Positions 33,046-48,203 of a stretch of DNA of 49,557 nucleotides are shown here, piece by piece; position 1 is the first letter of the stretch, and each line of letters begins with the position of its first letter. The translations under genes and the position numbers were made by a program. The DNA is taken from NCBI RefSeq assembly GCF_900114655.1, contig NZ_FOTT01000024.1:1-49557 (forward strand). Reading direction: 5' to 3'. The stretch comes from Candidatus Frackibacter sp. WG13. Lineage in GTDB: Bacteria; Bacillota; Halanaerobiia; Halobacteroidales; Acetohalobiaceae. Under the pieces are notes generated by a model. It saw only the letters and a list, made by a program, of their open reading frames with translations, was not told where the DNA came from and did no database searches.

Positions 33046-33887
33046 TGAAAAAGTTACAACTAGGAATTGTAGAGTACATTAATTGTTGGCCGGTACACTA
33101 TGGCTTAGATTACGAAAAGATAGATGTAGATGCCGATATTATTGCGGGTCCACCAGCAGAATTAAACAAGAAGTTTTTACGTGGTGAAATAGATATTACA
33201 CCGATATCTGCAATTGAATATGCTCGTAATTTTGATGACTGCTATATTTTGCCTAACTTAGCTATTGCATCAGATGGTCCCGTAGGCAGTCTCTTTCTCT
33301 TTAGTGAGTTAGAGATTGAAGAGCTTAATGGCAAGCGAGTAGCTTTGCCTAAAGATTCGCGAACAACAGTAGCATTACTAAAGATACTTTTAAAACGTTA
33401 TTATCAGGTGGATGTTGACTATATTACGTGTGAACAGGATTTAGACCATATGTTAGATGTAGCAGATGCAGCCTTGCTAATTGGAGACCCTGCTTTAGAT
33501 GGTTATGTTGAACATGTTGATTCTAATTTGAATATAACTGATTTGGGTAAGGCCTGGAAAGAGTTCACTGGCTTGAAGATGGTCTATGCTATCTGGGTAA
33601 TTAGAAAAGAATTAGCCGAAAAGAATCCTGGATTAGTTGATGAAATTAGTAAAAAGTTATTAAAATCTAAGAAGTTAGGATTGCAGCAATTTGAGCTATT
33701 AGCCAAAAGAGCTGCTAAAGAGATGGAGATACCTTACGACATAGCATTGAGGTACTTTAAAAGTCTACGATATGACTTTGATGAAGGATATCAAGAAGGG
33801 GTAATGAAGTATTTTACAGATGCTTATGAGTTAGGATTAGTCGAAGAGATGCCTAAGTTGAACATTTGGGGTGAAGATAATGAGTGA
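33045..33887 (+). CDS. mqnA: Chorismate dehydratase MqnA
   Basis: This 280-residue protein has the periplasmic-binding-like fold of MqnA/MqnD proteins. LGIVEYINCWPVHYGL at the start, ITPISAIEYARN and GPVGSLFLFS are hallmark segments. It dehydrates chorismate to 3-enolpyruvylbenzoate, the first committed step of the futalosine pathway. It lies between the two radical SAM enzymes and overlaps both neighbours, so the trio is translated together. There is no signal peptide. Confidence 0.93.
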   Translation: MKKLQLGIVEYINCWPVHYGLDYEKIDVDADIIAGPPAELNKKFLRGEIDITPISAIEYARNFDDCYILPNLAIASDGPVGSLFLFSELEIEELNGKRVALPKDSRTTVALLKILLKRYYQVDVDYITCEQDLDHMLDVADAALLIGDPALDGYVEHVDSNLNITDLGKAWKEFTGLKMVYAIWVIRKELAEKNPGLVDEISKKLLKSKKLGLQQFELLAKRAAKEMEIPYDIALRYFKSLRYDFDEGYQEGVMKYFTDAYELGLVEEMPKLNIWGEDNE

Positions 33888-34959
33888 GCTTAAAGAGATA
33901 CTATTAAAGGCTCAAAGTGGTAAAAGAATTACTCCTGACGAAGGAGTAAAGTTATTAGCTAGTAATCAGTTGTTGCCAATCGGTAAAGTAGCTAATCAGA
34001 TTCGAGAGCGATTACATCCTGAACTAAAGGTGACCTTCGCTATTGATCGCAATATTAATTATACTAATGTTTGTGAAGCCCAATGTGATTTTTGTGCTTT
34101 CTATCGGGAAGAAGACGAGCAAGGGGCTTATATTTTAGATCGTGAAGAAATCTTCCGTAAGATTCAAGAGACGATAGATCTAGGTGGAACTCAAATCTTA
34201 ATGCAAGGTGGTCTACATCCAAAACTAACCTTGGACTACTATCTAGAACTCTTTAAAGCAATTAAAGAACGGTTCGAGATTCATATCCATTCCTTATCAC
34301 CACCGGAGATAATACATATTGCACGCCAGTCTGGTTTATCTATCAAGGAAACTTTAGTTGAGCTAAATCAAGCTGGTTTAGCTTCCTTGCCTGGTGGAGG
34401 GGCTGAAATTTTAGTTGACCGAGTGAGAGAAAAAGTAAGCCCTAATAAGATAAATAGTGACCAATGGCTAAAAGTAATGCGAGTAGCCCATGAGATTGGG
34501 ATGAAGAGTACAGCAACTATGATGTTTGGGAGCGTAGAGACCTTAGAAGAGCGAATTGAACATTTGGTTAAGGTCAGAGAACTACAAGATGAAACTGGTG
34601 GTTTCACAGCCTTTATTCCGTGGTCTTTCCAGTCATCTAATACTGAATTAGCTGATAAATCAGAAGTAACTTCAGTAACCGGAACTGAATATTTACAGAT
34701 GGTAGCAGTAGCTAGAATAATGCTAGATAATATACCAAGTATTCAGGCCTCTTGGGTAACCCAAGGAGCAAAGATCGCTCAAATATCATTAGAGTTTGGA
34801 GTTAATGATTTTGGTAGTACTATGATTGAAGAAAACGTAGTTAAAGCCGCTGGTGCTTCTTTTCGGGTTCCGTTAGAGAAAATAGTCTCGCTAATAAAGG
34901 ATACAGGAAGAAAACCAGTGCAGCGTGATACCTTATATAATGAGTTAAAGGAATTTTAG
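33880..34959 (+). CDS. mqnC: Cyclic dehypoxanthinyl futalosine synthase MqnC
   Basis: The product (359 residues from ATG 33880) is a radical SAM enzyme with Cys65, Cys69 and Cys72 in VCEAQCDFCAF. ILMQGGLHPKLTLDYY and FIPWSFQSSNTEL distinguish MqnC from the MqnE paralogue next door. It cyclises dehypoxanthinyl futalosine to the bicyclic precursor of dihydroxynaphthoate. GGGGTG at 33868 is the ribosome site, and the gene overlaps mqnA by 8 bases. Confidence 0.93.
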   Translation: MSELKEILLKAQSGKRITPDEGVKLLASNQLLPIGKVANQIRERLHPELKVTFAIDRNINYTNVCEAQCDFCAFYREEDEQGAYILDREEIFRKIQETIDLGGTQILMQGGLHPKLTLDYYLELFKAIKERFEIHIHSLSPPEIIHIARQSGLSIKETLVELNQAGLASLPGGGAEILVDRVREKVSPNKINSDQWLKVMRVAHEIGMKSTATMMFGSVETLEERIEHLVKVRELQDETGGFTAFIPWSFQSSNTELADKSEVTSVTGTEYLQMVAVARIMLDNIPSIQASWVTQGAKIAQISLEFGVNDFGSTMIEENVVKAAGASFRVPLEKIVSLIKDTGRKPVQRDTLYNELKEF

Positions 34960-34986
34960 TATATTTTAAAGTGAAACTCGTTCGTA

Positions 34987-35149
34987 TTCATAATCAATTG
35001 ATACCGCCTGCAAATTCCGCTACGACTTTCATAAAGTTGAGCATGGGCTGTTTCAAACTCCCTTCGGTCAAACATGAAACAGCCTTATTCATGCTCAACT
35101 TCATTCCAGTCTGCTCCATTTTTAATGGCTAACATCAATTGATTATGAA
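34987..35149. repeat. 163-bp nested palindromic element
   Basis: Three perfect inverted repeats are nested. The outer 16-bp pair is TTCATAATCAATTGAT (34987-35002/35134-35149). The middle 12-bp pair is AAGTTGAGCATG (35034-35045/35090-35101). The inner 10-bp pair is GGCTGTTTCA (35046-35055/35075-35084), around a loop containing CTTCGG. It fills the gap between mqnC and the deaminase gene. It looks like a miniature transposable element or a structured RNA; it has no T tract after it and no ORF. Confidence 0.85.
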
Positions 35150-35204
35150 AATGTGTAGGTCATAATTTTGTAACCAGCGAATATAATCTAGGAGCGATCA
35201 AACA

Positions 35205-36545
35205 ATGATTTTAACTGCTAAATGGGTTATGCCGATAAGCAAAGAACCTTTAAAATATGGTGCGGTAGTTGTTGAGGGCGAAGAGATTAAAGATGTGGGG
35301 TATAAGGATGAGATTTTATCTAAATATCCGCAAGATGAAGTGAAAGATTTGGGAGAAGTTATTCTGTTTCCGGGTTTAATTAATATCCACACTCATCTTG
35401 ATTATACTATTTTAAGAGGAGTAGGAGATAATCTATCATTCTTGCCTTGGATAAGTAAACTAGTTGCTAAGAGTAGAAAGTTATCTTTTGAAGAGATCTT
35501 GCTTTCTGCTAAGCTGGGGGCTTTGGAACTCTTATCAGCAGGAGTAACTACTATTGCAGACACTACTGCTACTGGGGCTTCTTTGCAGGCTGCTTCTGAG
35601 TTAGGGTTAAGAGGTGTTATCTATCAAGAGGTTTTTGGGATGGATGATGAGAAGATAGGTCTTATTCTTGCTGATGTTGAAGAAAAGTATAATAAATTAA
35701 AGTCGCAAGCTAACCTTAAGCTAAAGATTGGACTATCACCTCATGCACCTTATTCGGTTTCTGGAAGATTACTTCAAGAAATAAGTAAGTTCGCTGCAAA
35801 GAAGGATGTTCCTCTTTGCATGCATTTAGCAGAAACAGAGGAAGAGATTGAATTTTTATTAAAGGGAACAGGTTCTTTTGCTACTACTTATCGCGAAGCG
35901 GTGGGTTGGGGAGATATTCCTTGGCAGGCACCACAAGTATCCGCAGTAAAATACTTAGATGATTTAGGTGTCTTAAATGATAGATTATTAGCAGTACATG
36001 TAGTGCAGACTAATGATGAGGATTTAGAACTGTTGAGGGAAAATGGAGTAAAAGTAGCTCACTGTCCCAAAAGTAATGCTAAATTAGGAAATGGAATAGC
36101 TAATTTGCCAGCAATGTTAGAGCAAGGATTAGAAGTTGGTTTAGGTACTGATAGTGCGGCTAGTAATAATTCCTTGGGTCTTTTTTCTGAGATGGAGTTT
36201 GGTTTGTTATTACATCGAGCTAATCAAAGAGATGCAGAAGTCTTAACTGCTAAGGAAGTAGTAGAGATGGCGACAATTAAAGGAGCAAGGATTTTAGGCT
36301 TAGAAGAAGAAGTTGGAACTTTAGAAGTAGGCAAGAAGGCTGATTTAACTGCGGTTAGCATTGATAATCTAGCCAACCAACCGGTTTATGACCCATATTC
36401 TACTTTGGTTTATAATGCTTCTAGCCGTGATGTAATCTTAACTATGATTAACGGAGAGCTTATATATAAGAATGAAGAATTTAATGGAAGAATAGAAGAA
36501 GTGATAAATGAATTAAAGCAAGTGAAGCAGAAGATAGAAGAATGA
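35205..36545 (+). CDS. Amidohydrolase, probable aminofutalosine deaminase
   Basis: This 446-residue protein is an amidohydrolase-superfamily deaminase of the MtaD/SAH-deaminase branch. Metal ligands are visible as HTH (His62, His64), the histidine of HLAETEEE, the histidine preceding VVQTND and the aspartate of GTDSAASNN. Members deaminate adenine in nucleosides such as S-adenosylhomocysteine, methylthioadenosine or aminofutalosine. Encoded among mqnE, mqnA, mqnC and ubiX, it most likely converts aminofutalosine to futalosine. No futalosine hydrolase (mqnB) is seen in this window. The start at ATG 35205 follows AGGAGCG. Confidence 0.85.
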   Translation: MILTAKWVMPISKEPLKYGAVVVEGEEIKDVGYKDEILSKYPQDEVKDLGEVILFPGLINIHTHLDYTILRGVGDNLSFLPWISKLVAKSRKLSFEEILLSAKLGALELLSAGVTTIADTTATGASLQAASELGLRGVIYQEVFGMDDEKIGLILADVEEKYNKLKSQANLKLKIGLSPHAPYSVSGRLLQEISKFAAKKDVPLCMHLAETEEEIEFLLKGTGSFATTYREAVGWGDIPWQAPQVSAVKYLDDLGVLNDRLLAVHVVQTNDEDLELLRENGVKVAHCPKSNAKLGNGIANLPAMLEQGLEVGLGTDSAASNNSLGLFSEMEFGLLLHRANQRDAEVLTAKEVVEMATIKGARILGLEEEVGTLEVGKKADLTAVSIDNLANQPVYDPYSTLVYNASSRDVILTMINGELIYKNEEFNGRIEEVINELKQVKQKIEE

Positions 36546-36566
36546 TAATTAGGAGGAACTTTAAAA

Positions 36567-37169
36567 TTGAAGCCTTATGTGGTAGGAATTACCGGAGCTA
36601 GTGGTAGTATTTATGCTAAAAGATTATTAAAAGTATTAATTAATAAAGGACACCAGGTTTATGTGATTATTAGTGAACCAGGGAGACGAGTGTGGAGAGA
36701 TGAATTAGAAATAGAATTAGGAGATATGACCCGGGAAATAAATGAGCGTATTCGTCAGAGTCTAGGCCTAGATAAAGATGATGAATCTATAATCTATTTA
36801 GATAATGATAATATAGGGGCTCCAACCGCTAGTGGTTCTTTTCAAACAGCAGGCATGGTCGTAATTCCGTGCAGCATGTCTACTGTGTCAGGAATAGCTT
36901 ATGGTCGTTCGACTTCTCTTCTGGAGAGGTCAGCAGATGTAATATTAAAAGAGAAGCGACAGTTAATAGTAGTGCCTAGGGAGACACCTTTAAATACGAT
37001 TCATTTAGAGAATATGTTAAAATTATCGAAGTTAGGAGTAGATATTATTCCGCCGATGCCTGGTTTTTATAATAATCCCCAAACTATAGATGATTTAATT
37101 GATTTTGTAGTGGGGAGAGTTTTAGATCGCTTAGGGATTGAGCATAATATTTATGAGCGATGGGAGTAG
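36567..37169 (+). CDS. ubiX: UbiX-family flavin prenyltransferase
   Basis: The protein has 200 residues and begins VVGITGASGSIYAKRLLK, the FMN-binding signature of UbiX/Pad1. The PCSMSTVSGIAYGRS, VVPRETPLNTIHLENM and PPMPGFYNNP segments are conserved. It prenylates FMN with dimethylallyl phosphate to make the cofactor required by the UbiD decarboxylase at the start of the cluster. It starts with TTG at 36567 behind AGGAGGA, 20 bases after the deaminase gene. Confidence 0.94.
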   Translation: MKPYVVGITGASGSIYAKRLLKVLINKGHQVYVIISEPGRRVWRDELEIELGDMTREINERIRQSLGLDKDDESIIYLDNDNIGAPTASGSFQTAGMVVIPCSMSTVSGIAYGRSTSLLERSADVILKEKRQLIVVPRETPLNTIHLENMLKLSKLGVDIIPPMPGFYNNPQTIDDLIDFVVGRVLDRLGIEHNIYERWE

Positions 37170-40538: not shown

Positions 40539-41621
40539 ATGGGAATACATATTCAAAAAGGAGAAGAGGAAGAACTTATAGTTAAATTCAATTATACGTC
40601 AGGGAGGGTTAAAAAGATAAAGTTAATTGATGGCCGGCGTTGGGATCCAGAAGAGAAGTTTTGGACGATTCCTTATACGGAGGAAGCGGTTGAGCAACTA
40701 TTTAATATTTTTGAAGATGAGGAAATTTTGGTAGATGAATCACTTGATTTAGATATTTACAGAGGAAGTATAGGTGCACAGACTTGGAAGTCTAAGGTTT
40801 TAGGTGAAATGAAGGAAGAATTAAAATTACAAGGGTATAGCCCAAATACTATAGATGTATATTTAACACATATTAATCAGTTTATAAAGTTTCATAAGAA
40901 AAATCCTGAGACTTTACAACAAGAGGATGTACGTAAATATTTATTATTTTTATTAGAAGAAAAAGAGAGTTCTCATTCGTATGCAAATCAAGCATTGAGT
41001 TCACTTAAATTTTTATACAGTGAGGTATTACATAAGCAAGAGGTGGTTTTCAATCTTCCTAGACCAAAGAAAGAAAAGAAATTACCAGTTGTATTAAGTC
41101 AGCAAGAAGTTTCTAAAATATTAAATTCTATAGACAATTATAAACATCGTGCAATATTATTTTTGACTTATTCAGCGGGATTACGTGTAAGTGAGGTTGT
41201 GGGGTTGAAGATAAATGATATTGATAGTGACCGCATGTTAATTCGGGTAAGGCAAGGTAAAGGCAGAAAGGATCGATATTCTATTCTTTCAGAGGCAGCA
41301 CTTAAAGCGTTGAGAGAATATGCAAAAAGATATAATTTAGCTAAATGGCTTTTTCCAGGAGGGAAGAAAGGGACTCATTTAACAGAACGAAGTGTGCAAA
41401 GAGTTTTTAAAAAAGCATGTAAAAAGGCTAATATAGAAAAAGATGTTTCGATTCATTCTTTTAGACATTCTTTTGCTACTCATTTACTTGAGAAAGGAGT
41501 GGATTTAAGATATATTCAGGAATTACTTGGACATAAAAGCTCGAAGACTACGGAGATATATACGCATGTCAGTAAGAAAAAACTTAATAATATAAAAAGC
41601 CCGTTAGATGATTTGGTCTAA
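40539..41621 (+). CDS. Tyrosine recombinase/integrase with extra N-terminal domain
   Basis: The 360-residue protein has all catalytic residues of tyrosine recombinases: Arg216, Lys241, His306, Arg309, His332 and the nucleophile Tyr341. Residues 83-168 form the SAM-like core-binding domain. Residues 10-62 are an extra domain with the pattern KFNY...VKKIKLIDGRRWDPEEKFW, reminiscent of HARP-like annealing-helicase domains. Features recalling IntI are QFIKFHKKNPETL, PRPKKEKKLPVVLS and the terminal IKSPLDDL. However, the segment from GKG to HxxR is about 65 residues, far shorter than in IntI1, so the IntI-specific insertion is absent. It starts at ATG 40539 behind AAGGAAGG. Confidence 0.9.
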   Translation: MGIHIQKGEEEELIVKFNYTSGRVKKIKLIDGRRWDPEEKFWTIPYTEEAVEQLFNIFEDEEILVDESLDLDIYRGSIGAQTWKSKVLGEMKEELKLQGYSPNTIDVYLTHINQFIKFHKKNPETLQQEDVRKYLLFLLEEKESSHSYANQALSSLKFLYSEVLHKQEVVFNLPRPKKEKKLPVVLSQQEVSKILNSIDNYKHRAILFLTYSAGLRVSEVVGLKINDIDSDRMLIRVRQGKGRKDRYSILSEAALKALREYAKRYNLAKWLFPGGKKGTHLTERSVQRVFKKACKKANIEKDVSIHSFRHSFATHLLEKGVDLRYIQELLGHKSSKTTEIYTHVSKKKLNNIKSPLDDLV

Positions 41622-41653: not shown

Positions 41654-41679
41654 TATTACCGACGCTAGTGTCGGTAATA
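41654..41679. other. Perfect hairpin downstream of the integrase gene
   Basis: TATTACCGAC and its complement enclose a 6-base loop. No T tract follows, so it is a poor terminator. It may be an integrase accessory site or an mRNA-end structure. Confidence 0.55.
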
Positions 41680-41694
41680 AATTGAAATAAGTAT

Positions 41695-41730
41695 GTTATA
41701 TGACATTCGTTAAGATTCAGTTATATGACA
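41695..41730 (+). other. Candidate attI with direct repeats
   Basis: Two copies of GTTATATGACA (41695-41705 and 41720-41730) flank CGTTAAG, whose GTTA core (41709-41712) resembles the GTTA of the three attC-like sites. Position, core and flanking direct repeats fit an attI recombination site. This is inference from layout. Confidence 0.4.
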
Positions 41731-41775
41731 GATGGCACAAGATACTATTACATTAAAAATTCAAGGGGGAAAAAC

Positions 41776-42579
41776 ATGTTTTATCATATTTTAATTTCTA
41801 CAGAAGAAACAGATGAAGTATATGAAATTGATCACGAGGACTTAAATTATATTAAAGAAAATATGGCAAAACCGTATCTTCAAAACAAAGATTTTCAAGT
41901 AGATGGATATTTTATTGAGCCATCAAAAGTTAAAAGAATGATAATCACTACCACAGGAAAAGCATCTAATTATCTACGAGAAGCTAAACAAAGTCAAGTA
42001 TCACCAGGTGTTCTTTATGTTTATAGTAGAAAAGAATGTGTTTTTGAAATAGATGATTATAAAGAGGATATTACAAGAGAAGTATTTGAAGAAATTAAAG
42101 AAAATATAACAAAAAATGAAGAAAAAACATTAAAAAAAAGCAATGATGATAGTGCTGATAGTAATGAAGATACAACTATTTTTTTGGCTTATAGTTATAG
42201 AGAAGATGATGATGAATTTGTTTCTGGATTTAAAGAGTTGCTCGAGAATAAGGGTTATAAAGTAATTGATGGAAAAGCAGATAGATTGGGTTCAATATCT
42301 GATGCAATTATTGAAAAAATTCAAATTTCAGATATAGCAGTTATTGTTATGACAAAAAGAGATAAAAAAGAGAATGGAAAATTTACAACAGCGGCTTGGT
42401 TATTAGAAGAGAAAGGGGCAGCAATTGCATTTGATAAAGATGTTGCAATGTTTGTTGAAGAAGGAATAGATGAAACAGATATTGGTGGTTTACAAGGAGA
42501 TGCTCAAAGATTTCATTTTACAAGAAATAATTTTTTAAAAGTTGTTATGAATTTTGTAAAAATACTTGAAGTAGAATAG
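41776..42579 (+). CDS. TIR-like domain protein (cassette 1)
   Basis: The product (267 residues) has an unrecognised N-terminal domain (residues 1-110), an acidic Lys/Asn/Asp linker (110-132) and a C-terminal TIR-like domain from about 133. That domain starts TTIFLAYSYREDDD and continues LENKGYKVIDG, ADRLGSISDAIIEKIQISDIAVIVMT and AAWLLEEKGAAIAF. It resembles predicted nucleotide-binding TIR-like proteins, some of which are NAD-degrading antiphage effectors. Glu211 or Glu212 would be the candidate catalytic residue. An earlier in-frame ATG (41725) exists, but AAGGGGG sits just before 41776. Very high A+T and Lys content set it apart from the core genes. Function is inferred. Confidence 0.7.
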   Translation: MFYHILISTEETDEVYEIDHEDLNYIKENMAKPYLQNKDFQVDGYFIEPSKVKRMIITTTGKASNYLREAKQSQVSPGVLYVYSRKECVFEIDDYKEDITREVFEEIKENITKNEEKTLKKSNDDSADSNEDTTIFLAYSYREDDDEFVSGFKELLENKGYKVIDGKADRLGSISDAIIEKIQISDIAVIVMTKRDKKENGKFTTAAWLLEEKGAAIAFDKDVAMFVEEGIDETDIGGLQGDAQRFHFTRNNFLKVVMNFVKILEVE

Positions 42580-42652
42580 ATAGATAAATAAATTATAAAA
42601 AAGAGGTTTTAATCTAATTGAAATGTAATTAAAAAATTGGAGGAAGATATTA

Positions 42653-43300
42653 ATGTCTAAGAAAATTGGTAGAAATGACCGTTGTCCTTGTGGAAGTGGT
42701 AGAAAATATAAAAAGTGTTGTATAAACAAGTTTGTTACTAATAAATTTATTCAATGGGAAATTAATGCCAGAGATATTTTAATTAGTGAACCAAAGAACG
42801 ATGATATTGTCAAAATATTTTTTAATGTTCTAGATATTATAGACAGAAGAGATTGGAAAGGTGCATGTCATGCAACATGTGCAGTCTTATATGTTTTATT
42901 TAGTGAGATAGGATTAAAACCAACTCTTTGTTTAGGTGAGGTTAAATATAGTAACATTGTTTTTGACCATTCTTGGATAGAAATATCTAATAATGTTTAT
43001 GATGCTGCAATATTTAAAACTATTCATGGGGATATGTTATTTTCTCCTATAATTAATGGAGTATCTGTTGATACTAAGCAACCACCCAAAGCAGAGTATG
43101 GTATAGTATCTGGACAAGCTATTAGTGCTTATGCAAAAAAAATTAAAAATACTTCTTTTGAAAAATATATGAGTAATTATCCAGAAAGGAAAAATGGACT
43201 TTGGGATTTTGTTAAAATAATCGCAAAAAAGATTTCGCTTGATGTGAATATTCAAGAATTAAAAAGTAAGTATTCTAATGTTAAATGGTCAGATAAATAG
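42653..43300 (+). CDS. SEC-C motif protein with cysteine protease/transglutaminase-like domain (cassette 1)
   Basis: The protein has 215 residues. Residues 5-23 form a SEC-C zinc motif, [18 protein letters not shown], as at the SecA C-terminus. Residues about 68-120 carry [20 protein letters not shown] and VYDAAI. This Cys72/Cys76...His106...Asp117 order resembles the catalytic triad of transglutaminase-like or papain-like proteins. It might modify or cleave a target or its TIR-like neighbour. No attC lies between the two genes, so they travel as one cassette. GGAGGAAG precedes the ATG. The function is not known. Confidence 0.65.
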
Positions 43301-43361
43301 TTTTTTATTGTCAATAGAAAAATAGTAGCAGTAACTTTAACATGGGGGAGTGCCATCCATC

Positions 43362-43492
43362 ATATAACAGCACCTTAGCGACATCCCAGTTATGAGCATA
43401 AATGAAAGTTAGGCTGACTTATGTGAGATTTAGAGGTTTATCTGAGACTAGGATGGTTAGCGGGGACGTCGCGAAGCTGCGGGACGTTAGAC
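43362..43492 (+). other. attC-like site 1 (end of cassette 1)
   Basis: The left arm is ATATAACA then GCACCTTAGCGACATCCC. The right arm is GGGGACGTCGCGAAGCTGC, then GGGAC, then the core GTTAGAC (43486-43492). Reversed, the right arm reads GCAGCTTCGCGACGTCCC, matching the left arm with few mismatches. The left spacer is one base and the right spacer five. About 80 bases of variable centre separate the arms. Confidence 0.75.
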
Positions 43493-43533
43493 GACATACT
43501 ATGTTAGTTAATTTATATGGAGGGTAAAAACTA

Positions 43534-43917
43534 ATGAGCATTAATAAAAACGATAACTATTTGAAAAAAGAAATCTACAAAACAGTATCAAAATTAACTA
43601 AAGAACATTTAGATAAAACAGGTAAATCTCAAACTCAATTATCAAATGAGATAAATGTAGTTAGATCTTATATAAGCAATATTATAAATGAACATACTTT
43701 CTCGATTGCAAGTTTTACGTTACAAAAATTAATGAATGAAATGAATATTCCAATATATAGAATTTTTGAAAATTTAGACTTATCAAATTTTGAAAAAGAT
43801 GATTATTATTCTTTATTTAATAGAGCATATCAAAATAATATAATGCCTAAAGATTTAGAAAATGCTATATATTTATTTAAAACTTTGAATTTAAATGAGG
43901 TTTCTTTAGATGAGTAA
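43534..43917 (+). CDS. Small helix-turn-helix protein (cassette 2)
   Basis: The 127-residue protein contains an Xre/Cro-type helix-turn-helix at about residues 30-70 (KSQTQLSNEINVVRSYISNIINEHTF style, with NIP-IYRIF following). It overlaps the HTH-HNH gene by 8 bases (GATGAGTAA), so the two are translationally coupled. It is probably the cassette regulator, controlling the adjacent nuclease or SIR2-like gene. ATATGGAGGG precedes the ATG, 48 bases after the predicted cassette boundary. Confidence 0.72.
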   Translation: MSINKNDNYLKKEIYKTVSKLTKEHLDKTGKSQTQLSNEINVVRSYISNIINEHTFSIASFTLQKLMNEMNIPIYRIFENLDLSNFEKDDYYSLFNRAYQNNIMPKDLENAIYLFKTLNLNEVSLDE

Positions 43918-44737
43918 AGAAAAAAAGATAACTTTAAATCATAGAGGAGAGGTTCATAAAGACCAAAGGCAAGAATGGGAGAATAAATTAGGAAAGTTCA
44001 TAAAATATTTTAGAGAAAAAAATGAATTTTCTTTAAAAGAAGTTGTTGATAAATTTGAATTCAATATTAGTCGTGAAGCAATATCAAAATATGAACATGC
44101 TAGCTCAGGAATAGGATTAGATAAACTTTTTGAGATAATGAGAGTTTTAAATATTAAACCACAATATTTAGAATTGTTAGGATATTCTCATTTACCTAGC
44201 AAACTAAAAAAAAATAATATATCAATGAAACAATTGAAAGTACTTATAGAATTAGTTAAAGAAAATACTTCTTTAACTAATTTTAAAAAAAGATATATTG
44301 AAAAGGTTAATGAACATAATCAACATACTAAATATTATATTGAAGATAAAAAAACAGAGATAAATATAAGAAGTGGCCATACTCAGTTTGCAGAGAGAAT
44401 TAAAGAAAATTACAATTATGAATGTGCTATTTGTGGAATTAATACAAAAGAAATTTTAATTTGTTCTCATATTATTCCTTGGAGTAAAGACAAAGAAAAA
44501 AGAATTGATGAAAGTAATGCTATTTGTTTATGTGCTTTACACGATAAGTTATTTGATAAAGGATATATAACTATCAACAATAATTATGAAATTAAATTAT
44601 CCTCTTTAATAAAAAAAGATAAGAAATTGTATAAAATATTAAGAGAGATAAAAGGAGAAACAATAAAAAAGCCTTCCAAAGGAAAACCCAATAAAGATTA
44701 TTTAAAATATCATAGAGATAATATATTCAAAAATTAA
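43910..44737 (+). CDS. HTH-HNH endonuclease (cassette 2)
   Basis: This 275-residue protein has an N-terminal Xre-type HTH (about residues 27-85), a helical linker and a C-terminal HNH nuclease of the HNH_2 type found in restriction-like enzymes. Visible residues are Cys172 and Cys175 (ECAICG), SHIIPWS with His187, Asn203 in DESNAICLCALHDKLFD, and His211. The paired HTH and HNH suggest a self-regulated nuclease similar to restriction or abortive-infection systems. No methyltransferase is present in the cassette. It is coupled to the preceding HTH gene. Confidence 0.82.
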   Translation: MSKEKKITLNHRGEVHKDQRQEWENKLGKFIKYFREKNEFSLKEVVDKFEFNISREAISKYEHASSGIGLDKLFEIMRVLNIKPQYLELLGYSHLPSKLKKNNISMKQLKVLIELVKENTSLTNFKKRYIEKVNEHNQHTKYYIEDKKTEINIRSGHTQFAERIKENYNYECAICGINTKEILICSHIIPWSKDKEKRIDESNAICLCALHDKLFDKGYITINNNYEIKLSSLIKKDKKLYKILREIKGETIKKPSKGKPNKDYLKYHRDNIFKN

Positions 44738-44865
44738 TAATAAAAAAAGGTAATTCAAACTAAACTATGAAATTTAATAATTTTGAAAATAAAAGATTAA
44801 TTTTATTTATTAGACATAAAAAATGTGTAATAAATAGGGAGGTGGGATTTTAATAGGATTTTGCA

Positions 44866-44895
44866 CTTGTTATACGCTTTTCTATTAAACATAAA
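44866..44895 (+). other. Possible degenerate cassette junction
   Basis: In the 160-base gap between the HNH and SIR2-like genes, GTTATACGC resembles the GTTAGACGA core of attC 1, and an AATAG...CTATT pair flanks it. No paired arm is present. It may be the scar of a fusion between two former cassettes; this is weak evidence. Confidence 0.2.
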
Positions 44896-44897
44896 TC

Positions 44898-45941
44898 ATG
44901 AAAAAAGAAGATTATATTGAGTTTGAAAAAATGATGAAGAACAGACCTCATTTAGTAATATTAGGAGCTGGTGCTAGTGTTGCAACGATATTAAATGGTG
45001 ATGCTAATGGTAGACAAATATCTGTTATGGATGGTTTTATCGATAAGTTAAATATGAAGAATTTAATTGAGGAAGTTGAAATTAATACAGATAGCGATAA
45101 TTTAGAAGATATTTATTCAGAATTATATGAACGAGATGATTGTAAAGAGGTTTTAGAAACTCTGGAAAGTAGGATATATGATTATCTTTTACAATTTGAA
45201 ATTCCATCAGAACCAACGATTTATGATTATCTAATTCTGTCACTTAGAAAAAAAGATGTAATTGCAACATTTAATTGGGATCCTTTATTATTACAAGCAT
45301 ATAAGAGAGTAAGTAGGATTACTAATGAATTACCAGAATTATTATTTCTTCATGGTAACGTCTATGTTGGTGTCTGTCATGAACACAAACGTGGTGGTTT
45401 TATAGGAAATCGCTGTCCAATATGTGGAGATTTATTTGAGAAAACTAAATTATTATTTCCAGTAAAAAATAAAGATTATGATAGTGACTTGCTTATTAAA
45501 GATCATTGGAATGCAATAAGATATTATATGGAAAAAGCTTTTGTAGTAACTATTTTTGGATATAGTGCTCCTAAAACTGATAAAGTTGCTATTGATTTAT
45601 TAAAAAATTCATGGGGAGAAAAAGAGAAAAGAAATTTTGAAGAAATAGAAATTATTGATATTAAAGATGAAAAAGAATTGGTTGAAACATGGAATGATTT
45701 TATTCATACTCATCATTATCAAGTTTGTAATTCTTTTTTTGATTCAATTATTGCACAGTTTCCAAGACGTTCATGTGAAGCAATATTTGATAGATTTTTT
45801 AATCTTAAATGGCTTGATGGTAGAAAAGGATTAAAAAATGATATGAATTTTGAAGATTTAAATGATTATTTTGATAAGATTTTACATGATGAAAGAATAG
45901 ACCAAAAAATATTAACTACTTTTGGAATAGTAGATGATTAA
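44898..45941 (+). CDS. SIR2-like domain protein (cassette 2)
   Basis: The 347-residue product resembles SIR2-family proteins found in antiphage systems. HLVILGAGAS (GAGAS at 23-27) matches the NAD-binding loop, TFNWDPLL (Asn126, Asp128) the conserved Asn-Asp pair, LFLHGNV the catalytic histidine (His152), and FGYSAPKTDKVAID the C-terminal nucleotide-site segment. A Cys/His zinc ribbon (Cys160, Cys173, Cys176) is inserted after LHG, as in sirtuins. NAD degradation after infection is the likely activity but is inferred. The ATG at 44898 has no good ribosome site; GGGAGGTG lies about 50 bases upstream, so the start is uncertain. Confidence 0.72.
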   Translation: MKKEDYIEFEKMMKNRPHLVILGAGASVATILNGDANGRQISVMDGFIDKLNMKNLIEEVEINTDSDNLEDIYSELYERDDCKEVLETLESRIYDYLLQFEIPSEPTIYDYLILSLRKKDVIATFNWDPLLLQAYKRVSRITNELPELLFLHGNVYVGVCHEHKRGGFIGNRCPICGDLFEKTKLLFPVKNKDYDSDLLIKDHWNAIRYYMEKAFVVTIFGYSAPKTDKVAIDLLKNSWGEKEKRNFEEIEIIDIKDEKELVETWNDFIHTHHYQVCNSFFDSIIAQFPRRSCEAIFDRFFNLKWLDGRKGLKNDMNFEDLNDYFDKILHDERIDQKILTTFGIVDD

Positions 45942-45975
45942 GAATGAATTTGAAAATTAAAATATGTCGTACGTC

Positions 45976-46103
45976 GTCTAACATCGCGTGGTCGACACCT
46001 ATCTTAATGCATAAAAGAGAGTTTTGTTTTATTTATGTAAATTTTATTTTTGTTTGAGGAATATGAGTTTTCGTGGGCGTCGGCAACCCGAGGAACGTTA
46101 GCC
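45976..46103 (+). other. attC-like site 2 (end of cassette 2)
   Basis: The left core is GTCTAAC (45976-45982), followed by one base and TCGCGTGGTCGACACC. On the right, GGCGTCGGCAACCCGA is followed by GGAAC and the core GTTAGCC (46097-46103). The reversed right arm TCGGGTTGCCGACGCC pairs with the left arm. The left core fits the classical RYYYAAC consensus perfectly. Confidence 0.8.
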
Positions 46104-46142
46104 GACATTTTATGTTGAGTTTAGTGCATAGGAGGAATCAAT

Positions 46143-47174
46143 GTGGAGATTTATAATTATGAAGAAAAAGGGCATACATCTGAAGTGATTTTATCTAATG
46201 AGAAAGAAACTATTAATCTTTCTCAAGGGATGTTGCAAAGTGCTATATTACATTATAAAGCCAGATTAATTATGTTATCTGGTAAAATACTGGATTATGA
46301 AAAAGAGACATTAAAATTAAATAGATGGGCAAGGGAAACTTCTGAATTGAAAACTCATTTAAAGAACTTGCACTTAAAAATAGTTAAAAATGATTGTGTT
46401 GTAAGAGAAATTAAAATGAATAATATGTATGTTTTGGACTATACAGAAGAGTATAATAGCCTTACATATACAGTGGTTTTATTACAGCATAATAGAAGAA
46501 GTGAATATACATGCGTACCAATCGATTCAAGGTATGGCGGGGGACGACTTTTGATTCAGCCCAAAGATGATAGTACAAGAAAAATTTTGGATAATATTAG
46601 ATTAGGATTAAATGGAGCGGGAGGTCTTGCAGTAACCAAGACCGGAATAGATGGATTAAGATGGTTATGGACTGAGGGTTTATTAGAATTTAGCGCGGCA
46701 AGAAGCGTTTCATTTTTGGCAAGATTTAATTTATATTATTTAGCAACTCATGGAGTAAACTTGATAATTTCTACAAGTGCAGATATATATTTTAAATCAA
46801 TTGGATATGAAGAGGGAGTAGGAAAGGTAAACCCATTAAGAGATATTTATAAAGAATTAGGTAAAATTGCTGGGGTTACTGTTTCTAAAATGTTTGACGA
46901 ATATAAATATAATGAAGAATTATGGGAAGAGAGAGGGGAAAACTTATATTATGCTCTTGATTTAACTGGAGCAGCAACAGGTTTATTTAAAACTACTAAA
47001 GAAATAATTCACACAGTTAAATATGGTGAAAAGGTCGCATATAAAATTTATTATAGTAAAGGTTTTGTTAGAGGAATTAGAAAATTAAGAAAGTCATATA
47101 TGTTAATATCTAGTGGGGCAGTCGCAAGAGATGTAAATCCAGTAGTAAAGGACGCTATGGAGTTGATGGATTAG
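46143..47174 (+). CDS. Unrecognised protein, possible toxin (cassette 3)
   Basis: I do not recognise this 343-residue protein with certainty. Residues 1-95 are helical and charged. Residues 100-145 are beta-rich, with a YGGGRLLIQP segment. Residues 150-215 are hydrophobic and Gly/Ala-rich. The THGVNLIISTSADIYFKSIGYEEG...NPLRDIYKELG pattern recalls DUF4225-type domains, which are found in bacterial effector or toxin proteins. With a small membrane protein encoded directly downstream, a toxin/immunity pair is plausible. It starts with GTG at 46143 behind TAGGAGG. The overlapping ATG at 46141 leads only to a 15-codon frame. Confidence 0.5.
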   Translation: MEIYNYEEKGHTSEVILSNEKETINLSQGMLQSAILHYKARLIMLSGKILDYEKETLKLNRWARETSELKTHLKNLHLKIVKNDCVVREIKMNNMYVLDYTEEYNSLTYTVVLLQHNRRSEYTCVPIDSRYGGGRLLIQPKDDSTRKILDNIRLGLNGAGGLAVTKTGIDGLRWLWTEGLLEFSAARSVSFLARFNLYYLATHGVNLIISTSADIYFKSIGYEEGVGKVNPLRDIYKELGKIAGVTVSKMFDEYKYNEELWEERGENLYYALDLTGAATGLFKTTKEIIHTVKYGEKVAYKIYYSKGFVRGIRKLRKSYMLISSGAVARDVNPVVKDAMELMD

Positions 47175-47187
47175 AGAGGTGAAAAAT

Positions 47188-47610
47188 ATGAAAAAACAAA
47201 GTAAGTTTAAGTTTGTTTTTAAATTGTATTTAATTAGAGGAATTTTATCTGGGATTTTAGCGTATATATATATTGGAATAAAAGATGGTGGATTATTTAC
47301 AGTATCGTATTATGGATTAGGCAATATTGCAGTAGTTTTAATGTTTTCGTTACCATTATTTTTTCTAGTAACTTTTATGATCTTCGTGTTAGAAAATACA
47401 ATAATAACAAGTTTTAGAGAAGGTCTTTCTTCAATAATAATTTTTATATTATGTATAAGTTTATTGTTATTAAGAAGTTATTTTACAGGAAGATTGGTAA
47501 GAATTTTACCTATATTATCCTTTTTTATAGGTTTTGCAACATTGGCAATAATTTTAGAAAGATTATTTGGTTTGCAACATAATGGTAATTATTATTTTAA
47601 AAGTAAATAA
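47188..47610 (+). CDS. Small membrane protein, possible immunity protein (cassette 3)
   Basis: The 140-residue product has four predicted hydrophobic segments (about residues 14-30, 43-66, 78-94 and 105-125) and a basic N-terminus. It matches no family I can name. It starts 13 bases after the preceding stop codon, with GAGAGGTG as ribosome site; an in-frame GTG at 47179 is an alternative start. A membrane immunity protein protecting against the neighbouring product would explain the pairing, but this is inference. Confidence 0.6.
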   Translation: MKKQSKFKFVFKLYLIRGILSGILAYIYIGIKDGGLFTVSYYGLGNIAVVLMFSLPLFFLVTFMIFVLENTIITSFREGLSSIIIFILCISLLLLRSYFTGRLVRILPILSFFIGFATLAIILERLFGLQHNGNYYFKSK

Positions 47611-47634
47611 TGAGTAATTAATACATAAAACATC

Positions 47635-47786
47635 GGCTAACATGGCATTTACGACACTAAGCAAAGTGCATAATAGTTGTCTTGGTAATGACTTATGCAA
47701 GATTGCTCGAGTTATATAATTGTAATTGCTGTGTTAAATTGAAATTGGACGAGCTTTGATGAGCGTCGTAAACACCAGGAACGTTA
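47635..47786 (+). other. attC-like site 3, interrupted by a group II intron
   Basis: The left core is GGCTAAC (47635-47641), then one base, then TGGCATTTACGACACTAAG. On the right, GAGCGTCGTAAACACCA is followed by GGAAC and GTTA (47783-47786). The reversed right arm TGGTGTTTACGACGCTC pairs almost fully with the left. The core stops at GTTA, where the intron begins. The remaining bases of the site should lie beyond the intron, outside this window. Confidence 0.78.
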
Positions 47787-48203
47787 GTACGCCAAGCAAG
47801 TTTGATATTTCTGGCAAGGTGAAGCCGTCTACTAGAGTAGACTTAGGATAATATCGATTATGAGAGATTACAACAGAACCAACGTAAATAGCTCAATGGT
47901 AAGAGCTTAAAAGATCGCCGACAGAAGGTCCACCTTTCACTACCTCACTGTCTTTGGTAAAGTGAAGGTCGTTCAATGGTTTGAGTAATATTTTAATTAG
48001 TCAATATATCTGATAACAGTCTTTGCTAGGTAAGGACTAACCATCCACCTATATCGAGTGTTGCGCTTTGAATTGGTAACAATTCAGGTGAAGTGTACAC
48101 AGAGAACTTTTTAGGCCAGAGGGAAGACCGTAATTCCTGAAGCATATTGAGCCCCGTTAGTATCGGGTCCTGGAAACAGGAGAAGAGCAGATGACGACGT
48201 AGT

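Follow-up and report, generated by a model that had tools for sequence, protein, structure and literature searches.

The window analysed here is a stretch of 49,557 nucleotides from the halophilic bacterium Candidatus Frackibacter sp. WG13 (contig NZ_FOTT01000024.1). One gene on its forward strand (40539..41621) raises the question of what a tyrosine recombinase does when it has an N-terminal domain resembling HARP and lacks the insertion specific to the integron integrase IntI. The evidence makes it highly probable that this gene encodes the integrase of a chromosomal integron, in a class distinct from the canonical IntI integrons. Judged from sequence, the marks of an integron platform are present, namely a tyrosine recombinase, an adjacent attI and a foldable attC array, and the window integrase would itself be the enzyme that recombines attI with attC.

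The integrase and its place among tyrosine recombinases

The gene was found to be an intact frame of 360 amino acids by its open reading frame and by Pfam, NCBIfam and PDB searches. Pfam places a SAM-like core-binding domain (Phage_int_SAM_4) at residues 90-166 (40806..41036, forward strand) and a catalytic domain (Phage_integrase) at residues 185-347 (41091..41579, forward strand). The catalytic residues R216, K241, H306, R309, H332 and Y341 are all kept, in agreement with the earlier note, which had described a normal recombinase behind an N-terminal stretch. By its membership of the Xer/IntI family, the catalytic half would work as in IntI and Xer, through R-K-H-R-H-Y catalysis. Orthologues were observed in ten of the thirteen genomes of the source order.

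The best match of the window integrase in the PDB was Vibrio cholerae IntI4 (E 1.5e-46), with archaeal XerA (1.9e-42) and XerD (6e-29) ranking behind it. The alignment with IntI4 splits where IntI has its specific insertion. In an alignment of about 100 proteins, this region holds 26 residues in the window integrase and 25-30 in its relatives, compared with 66-67 in all twelve rows of canonical IntI that cover it. The IntI-specific additional domain near patch III is thus absent, as had been claimed. The terminus IKSPLDDL had also been said to recall IntI, and a tail of the SPLD type proved common to the family (75/80 rows) and to IntI (10/13), with none in the five Xer rows.

Two alternatives bear on these observations. 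The protein could be an ordinary Xer- or phage-type recombinase lying beside cassettes that a canonical IntI moves from elsewhere or moved formerly (a CALIN). In the NCBIfam searches it passes the archaeal XerA model NF040815 ('site-specific tyrosine recombinase/integron integrase'; 253 bits, cut-off 220) and does not reach the cut-off of TIGR02249, the model for integron integrases (245.8 versus 265 bits), whereas its best PDB match is IntI4 and not Xer. The NCBI name of NF040815 already contains the words 'integron integrase'. Solved archaeal XerA proteins differ from the window integrase in that they fall outside the clade of IntI and the family and are missed by the HMM of the N-terminal domain, although the window integrase lies above the cut-off of the XerA model. 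Alternatively, the protein could be a degenerate canonical IntI that has lost its insertion and stands beside a frozen array, and the SPLD tail shared with IntI, together with IntI4 as nearest solved relative, fits such an origin. A degenerate enzyme is contradicted by the complete set of catalytic residues, by the absence of the insertion across the whole family and many phyla, and by the separate clade described below; a frozen array is contradicted by arrays that vary from 1 to 78 sites per genome among relatives. We give this degenerate origin almost no credence.

The tree was computed from the domains that the proteins share, excluding the insertion and the N-terminus. Canonical IntI was represented by class 1, class 2, Vibrio and Spirochaetota rows; a TIGR02249 scan of 14 control genomes gave none above the cut-off, and Spirochaetota genomes and plasmids were used instead. 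Fifty-nine family members form one clade (support 99/95), and canonical IntI forms a separate clade (100/100) that does not include the window integrase. The family, canonical IntI and the IS91-linked integrases are three groups apart from Xer (100/98), among which the tree did not resolve the branching order. The family is therefore a clade of its own beside IntI and apart from Xer, and the suspected kinship with IntI is upheld by this grouping and by the IntI4 match. The tree shows the separateness of the family and not a direction of evolution, because sampling favoured the family of the window. Phage integrase was rejected as a candidate.

The IS91-linked proteobacterial integrases are close catalytic relatives that likewise have no IntI insertion and end in an SPLD-like tail, but they have no HARP-like domain. 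Three of the five directly precede an IS91 transposase, and the sister integrases L159, L160 and L162, with neither HARP domain nor IntI insertion, were seen directly before IS91-family transposases on alphaproteobacterial plasmids. Since these relatives have neither the domain nor the insertion, a missing insertion by itself says nothing on attC use.

The N-terminal domain

Residues 1-70 (40539..40748, forward strand) were assigned to a HARP/XPB-DRD-like domain by profile searches, an AlphaFold2 model and fold comparison. Pfam HARP matched residues 15-44 of the window protein below its gathering score (E 0.088 for the whole protein, 0.0081 for residues 1-70). The same model matched 29 of 44 homologous N-terminal domains (best 4.9e-05), and a profile of the N-domain family found the SMARCAL1 HARP domain 4o66 as its best PDB match (E 0.0018; next 0.067), so that the HARP-like domain proposed in the earlier note was recovered at the level of the family. 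The pattern V.F.Y....V..IK.I.GR.W.P..K.W.IP is common to the orthologues of the order and to the 44 homologous domains, which come from many phyla.

A fold search with the full-length model returned recombinase-like chains only, and the domain was therefore modelled alone. The AlphaFold2 model of residues 1-70 (pLDDT 87) is a beta-beta-alpha-beta-beta-alpha-beta unit. It was matched to the XPB damage-recognition domain (Foldseek probability 0.99), to HARP (0.85), to T4 UvsW (VIA Z 7.8) and weakly to the MutS mismatch domain (Z 4.5), a comparison of moderate strength in which no Foldseek match had E<=0.001 and some unrelated proteins appeared at similar Z. The structural resemblance to HARP is one of several XPB-DRD/HARP/UvsW-like matches, at moderate strength, and a HARP/XPB-DRD/UvsW-like fold is tentatively predicted for the N-terminal domain. 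The N-terminal fold did not turn out to be unrelated to HARP, nor did the protein fall among phage or Xer integrases whose relatives have no cassette arrays.

The HMM of the domain matched 75 of the 80 family rows and none of the IntI (0/13), IS91-linked (0/5) or Xer (0/5) rows. Of 398 genomes sampled from the source phylum, 30 had a match at E<=1e-60, and in some of these the N-domain part was missing. Among the five family rows that lack the domain, one (L098) has its frame broken and another (L125) has an attC-like site (E 0.005) on its downstream side, which makes an absolute need for the domain doubtful.

The attI-like site, the cassettes and the attC arrays

An attI-like site, recognised by its conserved layout, adjoins the stop codon of the integrase on the downstream side (41654..41730, forward strand). 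It comprises the palindrome TATTACCGAC..GTCGGTAATA (41654-41679) and the core GTTATATGACA (41720-41730), with a second copy of the core at 41695-41705; the putative crossover lies between 41720 and 41721. This layout, with palindromes of type TTAACGACATATGTCGTTAA and a core GTTRNNYGAMA, is kept in ten out of ten orthologous loci. In 46 of 74 loci the core lies no more than 330 nt from the integrase, compared with 2.1 in shuffles, and its density is 1.94 per kb versus 0.09 per kb upstream. Lying just behind the 3' end of the integrase, the site would serve as the attI partner, with crossover at the G^TT of its core.

Three cassettes follow on the forward strand, each ending in a site found by the attC model. 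Cassette 1 (41721..43486) encodes a TIR-domain protein (41725-42579) and a SEC-C/transglutaminase-like protein (42653-43300), and its attC1 runs from R'' ATATAAC to R' GTTAGAC (43362..43492). Cassette 2 (43487..46097) encodes an HTH protein (43534-43917), an HTH-HNH nuclease (43910-44737) and an AbiH/SIR2-like protein (44898-45941), with attC2 from R'' GTCTAAC to R' GTTAGCC (45976..46103). Both are supported by domain searches and an inverted repeat. Cassette 3 (46098..47783) holds two ORFs without assigned function (46143-47174 and 47179-47610), with attC3 from R'' GGCTAAC to R' GTTAGTA (47635..47789).

The cassette genes between 41721 and 45941 resemble phage defence genes, as the TIR protein has PDC-S35/ThsB similarity, the HNH nuclease is near restriction HNH models and a third product is AbiH/SIR2-like. 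Just 3' of attC3, and oriented as the cassettes, lies a group II intron (Rfam RF02005, 48016-48276) with a reverse transcriptase ORF that runs off the contig end (48016..49557, forward strand), so that the contig ends inside the intron. Known IIC-attC introns have the opposite orientation (PMC7923331). Further upstream in the window (33871-37169), radical SAM (MqnC/MqnE-like), amidohydrolase and UbiX-like genes stand in a row and look, by eye, like menaquinone genes of the futalosine pathway.

The integrase would insert and excise circular gene cassettes by attC x attI recombination, with attC used as a folded single strand, as its conserved stem suggests. An inserted cassette is expected to begin with bases that complete its own far-end attC. 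In a comparison of 118 junctions, the 12 bases that follow GTT were complementary to their own attC at 8.7 positions and to the preceding attC at 5.7, with 97 junctions favouring their own and 7 the preceding one (Wilcoxon p=4e-17). The inverted repeats 41707-41738/43350-43381 and 43480-43514/45954-45988 of the window are likewise cassette starts complementary to their own attC. These observations point, indirectly, to cassettes that move as circles through G^TT. At the junctions (43486 and 46097 of the window, L064, L088 and others) a conserved GAMAT box was also seen beyond GTTRNNY, mismatched to its partner at one or two fixed positions, e.g. GACAT versus GACGT.

A scan for RYYYAAC...GTTRRRY with tight pairing missed the attC sites of the window, because within an array the R' bases are part of the following cassette; a covariance model found these sites. 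The five seed sites covary (10 pairs changed on both sides versus 0/500 shuffles) and are 89% paired, against 26-46% in slid controls. The covariance model matches every one of the thirteen genomes of the order and finds as many as 78 sites in a single genome; in several of these genomes the clusters start close behind the integrase. The first attC model takes no account of strand or position, and 30 of its 31 matches lay on the integrase strand. A second model, made from 27 sites of several phyla, had 98 double-change cells versus 39 when shuffled; since it was trained on the matches of the first, the strand bias of the first model is the cleaner test.

A scan of GTDB genomes yielded 80 loci with related integrases, in Bacteria (Paenibacillus, Cohnella, Saccharibacillus, Clostridia, Nitrospirota, Aminicenantes, Atribacteria and Bacteroidota) and in Archaea (e.g. 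Altarchaeum, Archaeoglobi and Methanophagales), many of them from metagenome bins in which single placements may be contaminated. Across these loci the second attC model found 154 sites at E<=0.01, of which 148 lie downstream of the integrase on its strand and the other six downstream on the opposite strand. It found none upstream in 626 kb. The cassette arrays that had been looked for in relatives are thus present and co-oriented. Where at least 1 kb of downstream sequence was available, attC sites were found in 41 of 54 loci with the second model and in 48 with a third, the new ones all co-oriented; in the remaining six none was found even with the third model. Contig ends lie within 500 bp of the integrase downstream in 21 loci and upstream in five, as would be expected if the arrays are hard to assemble.

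No canonical IntI above the family cut-off was found in the 13 genomes of the order or in 15 other array-bearing genomes. The position and strand of 148 of the 154 attC sites, the conserved attI directly behind the gene, the absence of canonical IntI from all 28 genomes and an attC anatomy unlike the canonical one all speak against the CALIN described above, which was rejected; as a whole, the reading as a Xer- or phage-type bystander strikes us as very improbable. Chance cassette-like repeats were rejected as well. The preferred reading thus remains an integron integrase with its own attI and array.

attC anatomy and how the site may be read

The arms of the attC sites were compared by explicit arm alignment, as minimum-energy folds of the bottom strands gave noisy spacer counts. 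The first break of the L stem is an extrahelical base on the R''-L'' arm in only 28 of 169 class sites, compared with all seven sites of the small canonical set (n=7); in the remaining class sites the stem is first interrupted by a mismatch or by a base on the opposite arm, or is not interrupted at all. The class spacer is lopsided (1/5, 4/7 or 3/6 nt), being longer on the R' side, whereas the canonical spacer is near-symmetric (5/6, 3/3, 2/2, 9/9). Extrahelical bases, spacer and terminal structure were common to all attC sites known at the time, and one extrahelical base was tied to strand choice (PMC2727003). The class attC model R2 matched no canonical attC in the canonical loci searched. 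Because Halanaerobiales sites served as the seeds of models R2 and R3, canonical-shaped sites near family integrases could be under-counted.

Enzyme and site therefore differ together from the canonical system, the one without the insertion and the other mostly without the canonical extrahelical base. This is a correlation, and it is what the idea of domain replacement predicts. The class probably reads attC in another way. That its attC mostly lacks the extrahelical-base arrangement read by IntI speaks for a replacement of the insertion by the domain, and it is plausible that the HARP-like domain takes the place of the IntI insertion in attC recognition. Domains of the HARP, XPB-DRD, UvsW and MutS types are structure-specific DNA-binding domains, and the one found here would read a structural feature of the folded attC instead of the extrahelical bases held in the pocket of the IntI insertion. 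The feature in question may be the lopsided spacer, or else mismatches within the L stem, a tentative suggestion that falls somewhat short of probable.

A true integron integrase might instead use its HARP-like domain for synapse assembly, for the attI palindromes, or for loading at forks where attC is single-stranded. Enzymes that process forks and DNA damage contain domains of the HARP, XPB-DRD and UvsW types, and in this class the attI core is constantly accompanied by palindromes; on the other hand, canonical extrahelical bases are missing from most class attC sites, which suits a changed reading of attC. We regard this alternative role as a serious possibility, about as likely as a reading of the spacer or mismatches by the domain.

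Known systems, plasmid-borne relatives and significance

The window class resembles the canonical integrons (IntI1, IntI2, VchIntIA/IntI4) in its tyrosine recombinase beside attI, its R''-L''-L'-R' attC, the core GTT, the cassette starts complementary to their own attC and the SPLD tail. Canonical IntI has an insertion of about 40 residues and no HARP-like domain, and the window class is the reverse; canonical attC sites are also unlike those of the class, as their R''-L'' arm has extrahelical bases and their spacer is near-symmetric. In the class 1 and 2 loci compared, intI is divergent from the cassettes, whereas the window integrase is co-oriented with them. Reverse-oriented integrases are known from Spirochaetota (PMC9668308), and the Treponema integrons (PMC9668308, PMC3607928) are a precedent for unusual orientation; these encode canonical IntI, which has the insertion and falls inside the canonical clade, unlike the window family. 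Archaeal integrons (PMC9668308) share with the class an occurrence outside Proteobacteria. The integron integrases described in the literature, those of archaea among them, reportedly possess the IntI-specific additional domain (PMC9668308), and the archaeal relatives of the window family differ from these in lacking it. The SMARCAL1 HARP domain, XPB DRD, UvsW N-domain and MutS mismatch domain are alike in predicted fold, and HARP also in sequence pattern, but they are parts of helicase-like or mismatch-repair ATPases, whereas the window domain is fused to a recombinase. No paper with both 'HARP domain' and 'tyrosine recombinase' was found among the open-access papers searched. The same papers yielded no description of this integron class, and an earlier one is possible in preprints and most subscription journals, which lay outside the search.

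Relatives of the window integrase were also observed on plasmids. In Acinetobacter baumannii plasmid NZ_CP104339.1 (L145, 3043-3910), the truncated recombinase before tet(X3), called 'xerD' in papers such as PMC7530245, matches the family with 52% identity over residues 126-359 of the window integrase. An attI-like palindrome and core (ACGCCATTTGGCGTATAGCCACTTGTTATGTGCCAT) lie between it and tet(X3), directly before the latter; an attC behind tet(X3) was sought on this plasmid and not found. From this arrangement, tet(X3) may once have been the first cassette of such an integron. On Chryseobacterium plasmid NZ_CP041688.1 (L144, 8980-19020), a full-length HARP-type integrase is accompanied by cassette-like genes in the same orientation, by an attC-like site and by a group II intron; this is possibly a mobile form of the class.

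Taken further, these integrons could make up a second great class, represented in Bacillota (notably Paenibacillaceae and Clostridia) and Halanaerobiales as well as in many other phyla and some archaea, in which a HARP/MutS-like domain instead of the insertion reads an attC with a matching code of lopsided spacer and mismatches in place of extrahelical bases; we advance this extended view with reserve, holding it to be less than an even prospect. Few integrons are believed to exist in Gram-positive bacteria, and IntegronFinder 2.0 reported one complete integron and a few CALINs in Firmicutes (PMC9024848); the window class was apparently missed by standard searches. If integrase detection rests on IntI-like models, a widespread class would appear only as orphan attC clusters, and because its attC sites differ too, it might be overlooked altogether. 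A recombinase is taken to be made an integron integrase by the IntI insertion, a rule that the class would break. The class would offer an independent solution to the recognition of folded single-stranded DNA, and would allow the step from Xer to IntI to be studied by natural comparison. As the cassettes of the window are defence-like and a truncated relative stands before tet(X3), the class may also matter for defence islands and for the question of how a mobile resistance gene arose.
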